This document shows positions 27,912 through 29,499 of a stretch of 52,059 nt of DNA, in pieces; positions within the stretch are counted from its first letter, which is position 1; every line of letters starts with the position of its first letter. The DNA lies in the NCBI GenBank assembly GCA_029242715.1, contig JAQWTL010000008.1, forward strand, positions 1-52,059. Reading direction: 5' to 3'. This stretch comes from Phycisphaerales bacterium. Lineage in GTDB: Bacteria > Planctomycetota > Phycisphaerae > Phycisphaerales > SM1A02. Both the position numbers and the translations under genes were made by a program. The notes below the pieces were generated by a model. That model was not told where the DNA came from, ran no database searches, and saw only the letters and a list, made by a program, of their open reading frames with translations.

Positions 27912-28580
27912 TCACTCATTGGCCGGCATGAGGCAAGCCTCATCATTATTCCGCGGTGAGTTCACTCGACTGGTCACCTCGTAAGCCTCCATCTCGTCGT
28001 CTGGATACGGCACCATGAGACAGGCGACCTGGCCCGGATCCTGCAGGTCATGTGCAAGCCAGCGATCGTGCTGGTCTGCTGGAATGATTACAGGCATGCG
28101 ATCATGAATCGGTGACAACAGGCTGTTGGGTGATGTCGTCAGAATCGTGAAGGTTTCGACCGCCTGTTCATTTTCATCTGACCAGGTTTCCCAGAGTCCA
28201 CCCATGCCGAATGGACGACGATCACGCAGATGTATGCAGAATGGCCTCTTGTGATCTCCATCACGCTGCCATTCATAAAACCCATCTGCAACGATCAGAC
28301 AACGACGACACCTCAGGGCTTCCCGGAAAGATGGTTTTTCAGCCGCTGTTTCTGAACGGGCATTGATCATCCGGCTTCCAATGGCCAGATCCTTTGACCA
28401 GGGAGGAACCAGCCCCCACCGCAAGTTGTTCAGTTTTCGGCCATCCGACATGGCCCGGACAACCGGCAGTTCCTGGGTAGGCGCAGCATTCCATGTCGGC
28501 CTGGCATCTGGGGGATCAACCAGACCAAAGGTATCCATGATGAGTCCTGGCTCGGAGGCCATGAAAAAACGACCACACAT
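27912..28580 (-). CDS. SRAP-domain protein (YedK/HMCES family)
   Basis: 222 residues. Starts MCGRF, where Cys2 becomes the catalytic N-terminal cysteine that forms a thiazolidine crosslink with abasic sites in single-stranded DNA. Other signature parts: WNAAPTQ, LRWGLVPPW, INARSET, GFYEW (active-site Glu) and IHDRMPVI (active-site His). All are present, so it is probably active in abasic-site protection. The start must be at 28580 because Cys2 is essential. No ribosome site is visible; see the promoter entry. Confidence 0.95.
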   Translation of the reverse strand: MCGRFFMASEPGLIMDTFGLVDPPDARPTWNAAPTQELPVVRAMSDGRKLNNLRWGLVPPWSKDLAIGSRMINARSETAAEKPSFREALRCRRCLIVADGFYEWQRDGDHKRPFCIHLRDRRPFGMGGLWETWSDENEQAVETFTILTTSPNSLLSPIHDRMPVIIPADQHDRWLAHDLQDPGQVACLMVPYPDDEMEAYEVTSRVNSPRNNDEACLMPANE

Positions 28581-28586
28581 GCATTG

Positions 28587-28614
28587 ATCATATCGACCGT
28601 GTCTGGCAACTCAA
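28587..28614 (-). promoter_or_regulatory. Possible promoter of the SRAP gene, near-leaderless
   Basis: Minus-strand TTGAGT (28609-28614), 16-nt spacer, TATGAT (28587-28592). Transcription would begin at about the ATG at 28580, giving a leaderless message and explaining the missing ribosome site. Match to the sigma-70 consensus is moderate only. Confidence 0.3.
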
Positions 28615-28619
28615 TGACA

Positions 28620-28837
28620 AAGGGAGCGTGCCATTCCTCCAGGCAAACTCCCTTGATCGTCTACTTCACCTTCCCTCCAAGGTGAGGACGTTCATTTGTC
28701 ATATGTGCAACGGAAGGACGATGCCTGCCCTGAACACGGGGAGCATATTGTCGGGTTCTCAAACCCGAGGGCCCCATCCTTCCGTTGCAATCTGGCGATC
28801 TACTCGCCAGCCCCCTCCTCACGTTGGCGTGGCCAAC
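28620..28837. ncRNA. Candidate structured RNA: five hairpins, central three-way junction
   Basis: Non-coding gap with consecutive strong helices. (a) 28620-28654: 7-bp AAGGGAG stem, internal loop, 4-bp TGCC stem. (b) 28658-28690: CGTC then TTCACCTT stem, loop CCCTCC. (c) 28706-28789: a perfect 13-bp stem TGCAACGGAAGGA enclosing two sub-hairpins, 28721-28746 (ATGC..CCC) and 28751-28768 (TCGGGTT stem, tetraloop), that is, a three-way junction. (d) 28792-28810: 7-bp CTGGCGA stem. (e) 28823-28837: 6-bp GTTGGC stem. The strand is undetermined: on minus it would be the 3' UTR of the small coiled-coil gene or leader of the SRAP gene. I could not match it to tRNA, SRP RNA, RNase P, 6S or a known riboswitch. 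Confidence 0.55.
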
Positions 28838-28841
28838 TGCC

Positions 28842-29156
28842 TCATTCCTCTTCCTCATCCCTGTAATAGTTGTCTTCACAGTCCTCTGTCCGGTCCTGTT
28901 GTGTTGCCTGCTCAAGCAGACGACGCAGGTAACCGTTCTCTCTCCGGGTCGCCTCCAGGTCGAACATGAGGTATTTCACGCTCAGCCTCAGAAAATCAAG
29001 GGAGTCCTGGAGTTCAGTTACAGCCCGGGTGATCTCAGCTTCTTGACCATTGGGGTCTGCTGCTGGGACCGCCAAGCCAGCCTTCTGGCAGTCGGGCAAC
29101 GCATGGATTCTCTTGAGCAGTTGTGCAAACCGCTCCTGGAAAACTTGTTCGTTCAT
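28842..29156 (-). CDS. Small coiled-coil protein of unknown function
   Basis: About 104 residues, soluble. N-terminal half has the helix QVFQERFAQLLKRIHALP; the second half (about 40-85) is a coiled coil (ITRAVTELQDSLDFLRLSVKYL.. LEATRRENGYLRRLLEQA); the C-terminus is acidic. I do not recognise the family. Start ATG 29156 has AGAAGAGAG just upstream; an upstream in-frame ATG (29177) overlaps that same purine run. Its stop is 4 nt from the hairpin cluster. Confidence 0.72.
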   Translation of the reverse strand: MNEQVFQERFAQLLKRIHALPDCQKAGLAVPAADPNGQEAEITRAVTELQDSLDFLRLSVKYLMFDLEATRRENGYLRRLLEQATQQDRTEDCEDNYYRDEEEE

Positions 29157-29204
29157 GACGCTCTCTTCTCTTCTCATGTGTTCAGTTCAGGGTTCCTCTC
29201 GCCA

Positions 29205-29499
29205 CTACATGGGAAGCAATTGCCATCCCGTTTCGGAGATAACGCTGTGCCAAACTGCCTGAAGCCTGCTTACGTGAGCGCCAAGGCCGTTTTCAGTGCC
29301 AAACCCCTTTCATGACCCCGTGCGGGTCAGTCGGGATGTTGCCCTGAATCAACAGCCTGTCGCCTGAGGTCAACGGTTCACTTGCCAATTGCAACCCCAG
29401 GCAAGTGGCATCTATGTTCATTCCGAAGTCACACACGTAGGAACGAGGAGCATAGGTGTAGTTGAGCCAGAATCCTTCTCCCTCACTCCGCTCCAGCAC
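29205..29499 (-). pseudogene. PilZ-like domain gene broken by one-base frameshift
   Basis: Frame from GTG 29499 reads NIDATCLGLQLASEPLTSGDRLLIQG, which resembles the PilZ core (D-S-x-x-G, then L..GD.L.L), though the DxSxxG motif is altered. It stops at 29293. Shifting by one base at a GGGG run (about 29304-29309) gives TENGLGAHVSRLQAVWHSVISETGWQLLPM and a stop at 29205, matching the usual PilZ end (V-x-W, then G-x-x-L). It is either a decaying c-di-GMP-binding gene or a homopolymer error in the assembly. A stop codon lies just upstream of the GTG, and the remaining gap to 29560 shows no other gene. Confidence 0.35.

Follow-up and report, generated by a model that had tools for sequence, protein, structure and literature searches.

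A candidate structured RNA downstream of a coiled-coil gene, apparently specific to one genus of Phycisphaerales

The window is the whole stretch of DNA analysed here, 52,059 nucleotides of a Phycisphaerales genome (contig JAQWTL010000008.1, forward strand). The element under study (28614-28837, about 225 bases) lies between two minus-strand genes, one for a coiled-coil protein (CC) and one for an SRAP protein. Genomes are designated by G numbers, G000 being that of the window. On the minus strand, starting from the CC side, the features are as follows.

28842-29177, minus strand: CC gene, taken from the list of open reading frames, 111 aa, stop codon at 28842-28844; the element is on its 3' side
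28823-28837, minus strand: helix A, 6 bp with a CAC loop, stronger as the conserved sequence GCCACGCCA than as pairing
28811-28822, minus strand: G-rich linker GUGAGGAGGGGG, which the consensus leaves unpaired and which is shorter in G002
28792-28810, minus strand: helix B, a 7-bp hairpin
28706-28789, minus strand: helix C domain, a long stem (28706-28721 with 28774-28789) closing a branched part
28751-28768, minus strand: helix C1, first arm of the junction
28728-28739, minus strand: helix C2, second arm of the junction, weak, with two consensus pairs only
28614-28702, minus strand: outer helix P1 (28696-28702 with 28614-28620), which encloses H2 and H1
28658-28690, minus strand: hairpin H2, with a GGAGGG loop
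28622-28652, minus strand: hairpin H1, at which the CC-strand transcript probably ends by intrinsic termination, with its tail at 28612-28621
28587-28614, minus strand: SRAP promoter-like site TTGAGT-16-TATGAT (consensus scan, 1 found against 0.3 expected)
27912-28580, minus strand: SRAP gene (PF02586, Pfam E 2.6e-74), downstream neighbour, outside the element

No Pfam or NCBIfam family was matched by the CC protein. Homologs were present in 118 of 181 genomes of the family, and CC can be described as a conserved protein without a family name. The consensus scan of 28400-29250 returned a single promoter-like site, that of SRAP. Its -10 hexamer ends six bases upstream of the SRAP ATG, and a TATNNT motif was read by eye six or seven bases before this ATG in G000, G002, G003 and G004. 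Because of the position of this site near the ATG and of the similar -10 in three other species, the SRAP transcript probably starts at its own promoter and is leaderless.

Region 28600-28860 was folded at -107 kcal/mol on the plus strand (z -6.6) and at -110 kcal/mol on the minus strand (z -4.4). Composition-corrected energies were calculated on an even 100-nt grid of 4518 windows representing 452 kb (3999 windows from the 400-kb contig C30 and 519 from the window), in which 28601-28800 was the third most structured. With this rank, and with none of 200 shuffled sequences as low in energy on either strand, the pairing beyond chance announced by the original prediction was recovered. Nine extra windows at 10-nt steps were put on the element (one repeats a grid window), giving 4527 in total; the lowest of all, at 28611, is one of these nine deliberately placed windows. 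At 50-nt steps within the 52-kb window alone (1038 windows, both strands pooled), 28601-28800 ranked second on the plus strand and eleventh on the minus strand, and the only lower residual was that of one window adjoining the 16S end. The genome contains a single copy of the element.

The 16S 3' end (minus strand) is situated at the contig edge (51550-52059) and is followed by a strongly folded spacer. Since neither tRNA nor 23S gave a match at gathering threshold within the window, the rRNA genes may be unlinked in this genome.

Homologs were searched at the DNA level in 61 genomes. G002, which belongs to the same genus, gave a full-length match (74%), and G003 gave a short one; the remaining matches (E above 0.02) look like chance. 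Thirty CC loci, fetched from the 118 CC-bearing family genomes, were read. In four of the six genomes of the genus (G000, G002, G003 and G004), the element was found at the same place, with the CC-SRAP order kept and a similar succession of hairpins in the spacer; the G003 and G004 spacers have strongly diverged in sequence. Each of the five full elements folds below all 300 of its shuffles on both strands. G001 has CC and a hairpin-rich spacer, and G134, filed under another genus, has a shortened spacer; the fetched flank contained no SRAP in either case. By eye, a zinc-ribbon gene converges directly on H1 in these two loci (L025 and L026). Because the two flanks are without SRAP and have the zinc-ribbon gene converging instead, SRAP appears to have been gained or lost at the CC junction. 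G005 reads as N at the place of the element and its locus (L028) was left out of flank scoring. Spacers identical to those of G001, G002, G003 and G004 were found in named Phycisphaerae or Phycisphaerales metagenome genomes, and homologs of the element in records PAAJ01000019, PBAY01000045 and JAKVBX010000032. Isolate names such as ALOHA_ZT_39 suggest a marine origin of these genomes.

Two covariance models were used, R1 built from G000 and G002 and R2 built from four species. Among 29 sources searched with R1, the highest-ranking after its two founding sequences were G003 (53.7 bits, E 3.3e-10) and G004 (37.1 bits, E 1.6e-6), each matched at the syntenic place; a second weak match was obtained in G004 (L024:1583-1659, E 0.011). 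When R1 was run on 181 family genomes and R2 on the same family genomes and on 400 genomes of the order, convincing matches were limited to G000, G002, G003 and G004; the family and order sets overlap, and the matches listed for the draw of order genomes did not include G002. These genome searches were performed with stricter filters and, for R2, scoring was restricted to 18 candidates in each family genome and 8 in each order genome, so that weak relatives could be missed. At the homologous place of G001, R2 gave only 9.2 bits (E 0.25).

Outside the genus, R1 gave eight matches in seven genomes (E 0.0045 to 0.96) and R2 matched L139-L144 and L116 (E 0.003 to 0.1). The R2 matches were rejected: they lie in open frames of at least 630 nt, in loci with no CC or SRAP match. 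The R1 match in L112 is inside one open frame, which we take to be a Mur ligase, and those in L111 and L113 were judged by their DNA similarity to L112. Ten weaker matches outside the genus were thus inspected, all in long open frames; L114, L115, L117 and L118 are outside this count. With only weak hits outside the genus among the candidates scored in each genome, the element appears to be genus-specific. CC would not need the element, since the model finds none outside the genus.

Covariation was counted in several alignments. When G000 and G002 were aligned on sequence alone, 8 of 64 pairs had changed on both sides (shuffled mean 3.9, with 2 of 500 shuffles reaching 8; slid controls 0-1), and 97.7% of the cells of these 64 pairs were paired. 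RNAalifold, run with no structure supplied, returned a nearly identical fold in which 9/69 pairs were compensated. A four-species MAFFT alignment gave 12/37 predicted pairs compensated, together with a number of broken cells attributed to G003 being out of register. In the model-fitted four-species alignment, which is biased towards the structure by the way it was built, 94.4% of cells pair and 14/33 pairs had changed on both sides (shuffled mean 5.4, reached in 0/500; slid controls 1-3). These counts, from two and four species, place compensatory change beyond the shuffled and slid controls and argue for a conserved structured RNA. The original prediction had proposed covariation and conservation in relatives as its own check, and both were found.

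The contribution of each helix was read on the minus strand, CC side first. Helix A is invariant between G000 and G002 (6/6 pairs) and, in four species, has no two-sided change and one broken cell, while GCCACGCCA itself is invariant in the four species. Because compensatory change is lacking in it, helix A counts as conserved sequence, its pairing being unproven. In the G-rich linker, only GGGG is invariant across the four species; G001 has GGAGGGG after the CC stop, and part of the linker pairs in a 300-nt fold of G000 alone. Helix B had changed on both sides in 5/7 pairs, with 100% of cells paired (four species). The perfect 13-bp stem foreseen at 28706-28718/28777-28789 is present and is prolonged in G000 by three further pairs to form helix C, in which 6/14 modelled pairs had two-sided change (four species). 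In helix C1, 3/7 pairs had changed on both sides between G000 and G002; the four-species alignment has gaps here in G004, and one sequence does not form two of the inner pairs. The proposed three-way junction is therefore upheld for the stem and one arm, which covary, but the other arm (28728-28739) keeps two consensus pairs only. Between G000 and G002, P1 is invariant (7/7 pairs), as are the four outer pairs of H2, and 2/6 inner pairs of H2 had two-sided change. P1 was not among the stems found in G003 and G004, and G001 has a different enclosing stem in its place. The cluster of hairpins was confirmed, with eight or nine helices counted here and not the five first described. A protein-coding origin was rejected because the G000 and G002 sequences are offset by gaps of 1 and 2 bases and because the helices show compensatory change. 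The element is also a case of an RNA structure retained across a single genus despite extensive change in its sequence.

Folding was also measured in the first 240 nt after the CC stop, and 29 of the 30 loci were scored. On the better strand, the z values of the genus flanks were -8.3 (G000), -4.6 (G003), -4.5 (G001), -3.5 (G002) and -3.0 (G004). In G004, these 240 nt cut off H1 and gave only -1.8 and -3.0 on the two strands. Outside the genus, G134 being left out, 7/23 flanks had a z of -3.0 or below on one strand. A strongly folded region after CC is therefore not exclusive to the genus; what is distinctive is the shared, compensated set of helices. In L045 (G112, another genus), the CC-SRAP spacer is about 500 bases long and has a z of -7.2, with different hairpins and no model match; it is possibly a parallel case.

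The seven outside flanks, with L045 the strongest and made of other hairpins, favour the reading of the element as a stack of ordinary 3'-end hairpins, a terminator plus stabilizing stems, with no specific regulatory job, released RNA or contact site. Hairpins with T-runs were also seen by eye elsewhere in the genome, in about 4 of 13 strong background windows inspected. The parts would be those of the module proposed below. Such a stack would not account for a helix order kept through compensatory change or for an unpaired segment conserved in sequence, and we regard this explanation as rather doubtful.

The strand was assessed from the H1 tail, from wobble-type mismatches and from folding energy. 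The H1 stem was found in 6/6 sequences. In the 10 nt following it on the CC strand, T was counted 6 times in G000, 5 in G002, 4 in G003, 8 in G004, 7 in G001 and 4 in G134; on the other strand, the counts were 5, 4, 1, 5, 2 and 5, respectively. The tail on the CC strand is T-rich in G004 (GTTTTTTTTG) and G001 (TGTCTTTTTC) and weaker in G000 (TTTGTCATTG), G002, G003 and G134. The consensus terminator scan did not call H1 in G000; its one call was H2 on the plus strand, at chance level (1 found, 0.8 expected). With a stem finder that treats both strands alike, 15 wobble-type mismatches fitted the CC strand against 3 for the other strand (p 0.04 for a shuffled null fraction of 0.61, the species not being independent). 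In each of the six sequences, it was the CC strand that had the lower fold energy. Because of the H1 tails, the wobble counts and the promoter-like site proper to SRAP, the RNA is tentatively placed, with weak support, on the minus strand between CC and SRAP. H1 is a probable intrinsic terminator of the CC-strand transcript.

A transcript of the plus strand, in which pyrimidine loops (CCUCC) might bind to Shine-Dalgarno sequences, was weighed against this placement. The z value is deeper on the plus strand in four of the five full elements (G000, G003, G001 and, barely, G004), and the CCUCC of the plus strand (GGAGG when read on the minus strand) occurs two to three times per full element for 0.7-1.0 expected. 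The wobble counts, however, lean to the minus strand, it is on that strand that H1 is followed by its clearest T-rich tails (G004 and G001), and the scan of 28400-29250 gave no promoter-like site on the plus strand. A plus-strand RNA is considered quite unlikely.

The element might also be a separate minus-strand gene for a small RNA, transcribed from a promoter of its own close to the CC stop and terminated at H1. The compact and strongly structured module, the probable terminator and the conserved 5' sequence would suit such a gene, but no promoter-like site was found at the CC end by the consensus scan, and a TATTAC seen by eye in the G000 and G002 CC tails is not retained in G003 and G004; this origin is judged unlikely. 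A reading as the 5' leader of SRAP is opposed by the promoter-like site between the element and SRAP, by the probable terminator before it and by the persistence of H1 after CC in G001 and G134, where the fetched flank has no SRAP.

The long inverted repeats could also indicate a DNA-level element, such as a mobile remnant, a cruciform or a protein site. Its single copy, its synteny in four species, the lack of a match in the phage collection and the wobble-type pairs all go against this explanation, which is very improbable. A MITE or other mobile element was rejected on the same single copy and fixed place, and the small non-autonomous element that had been suggested was accordingly abandoned, the four species being diverged.

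Titration of CsrA by GGA loops on the minus strand was considered, as the genome has two CsrA genes and GGA is found in loops of several relatives. A.GGA was counted 4 times in G000 for 1.6 expected and GGA 12 times in G003 for 7.8 expected, but there is no GGA excess in G000 (8 vs 7.6) or G002 (7 vs 7.1), and the 45 GGA of the five full elements, against about 36 expected, are a slight excess at most. A sponge of the CsrB/RsmZ type, which would have a strong GGA excess, was rejected on this total, and CsrA titration is hardly credible.

Known RNA families were searched with Rfam 15. No family was matched by the element at gathering cut-off, the 16S end being the only match of the window; in a permissive search, the best score was that of c4-a1b1 (15.5 bits for a cut-off of 46.7). 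This outcome of the Rfam search, which had been proposed as a check, is in line with an undescribed RNA. 6S RNA (RF00013) was rejected, with no match in G000; among the six genomes of the genus, one sub-cut-off match was obtained, on contig C22 of G001, away from CC, which is on C2. tmRNA (RF00023) was also rejected, its four matches in G000 all being on other contigs (the best on C27). No published description of the element was found in the literature on Phycisphaerae noncoding RNA, in reviews, in surveys or in Rfam.

The explanation that we put forward, with moderate confidence, is a conserved structured 3' UTR module of the CC transcript on the minus strand, which would protect the mRNA or be released as a stable RNA. 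On this strand, the CC stop is followed by the GCCACGCCA segment, the G-rich linker, hairpin B, stem C with its branched top, H2 and H1. Transcription of CC would read through the module and end at H1, and SRAP would then initiate from its own promoter. The folded tail would probably block 3'-5' exonucleases. Alternatively, the module may be cut from the CC mRNA, perhaps by RNase III, for which the long and perfect stem of C would be suitable, and persist as a stable RNA. The best candidate for a contact site would be the G-rich linker between helices A and B. Two possibilities of the original prediction, an undescribed structured RNA and a regulatory 3' UTR, are jointly supported at the sequence level by the conservation, the covariation and the lack of an Rfam family.

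Hfq was found in none of the six genomes of the genus. A bolder version would make the module a regulatory RNA of a new class, independent of Hfq and released from the CC mRNA, in which the G-rich strand, kept open by its position between helices A and B, acts and the branched C domain is a protein-binding or ligand-sensing body; we rate it as improbable. If true, it would be such a new class in a phylum with very few known sRNAs. The table of a 2022 survey gives 8 sRNAs for the whole PVC group and 345 for Proteobacteria (PMC9029176). For the planctomycetes, the element offers a concrete candidate: it has homologs and a probable terminator, its fold is supported by covariation, and a strand can be proposed for it.

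Among known systems, intrinsic terminators are matched by H1, with its GC-rich stem and a U-rich tail in G004 and G001. A terminator would account for H1 alone and leave the rest of the eight or nine helices unexplained. Candidate structured RNAs from comparative genomics are supported by covariation, intergenic and of unknown function, and so is this element; it differs from them in being found in one genus only (four full copies) with no Rfam match, and it is presumably too narrow in range for most such surveys. The element is also more branched than textbook examples of 3' UTR-derived sRNAs. Like the 3' UTR-derived sRNAs and regulatory 3' UTRs presented in PMC9438474 and PMC7821165, it comes after a gene, on what is taken to be the same strand, and is strongly structured. 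It may also end with the terminator of CC itself, which is clear on the CC strand in G004 and G001 but weak in G000, where the scan did not call it. It differs from them in being known here from its sequence alone and in belonging to a genus in which Hfq was not found. We class the element as a new candidate structured RNA, limited to one genus, of a known kind, that of regulatory 3' UTRs and 3'-end-derived sRNAs.
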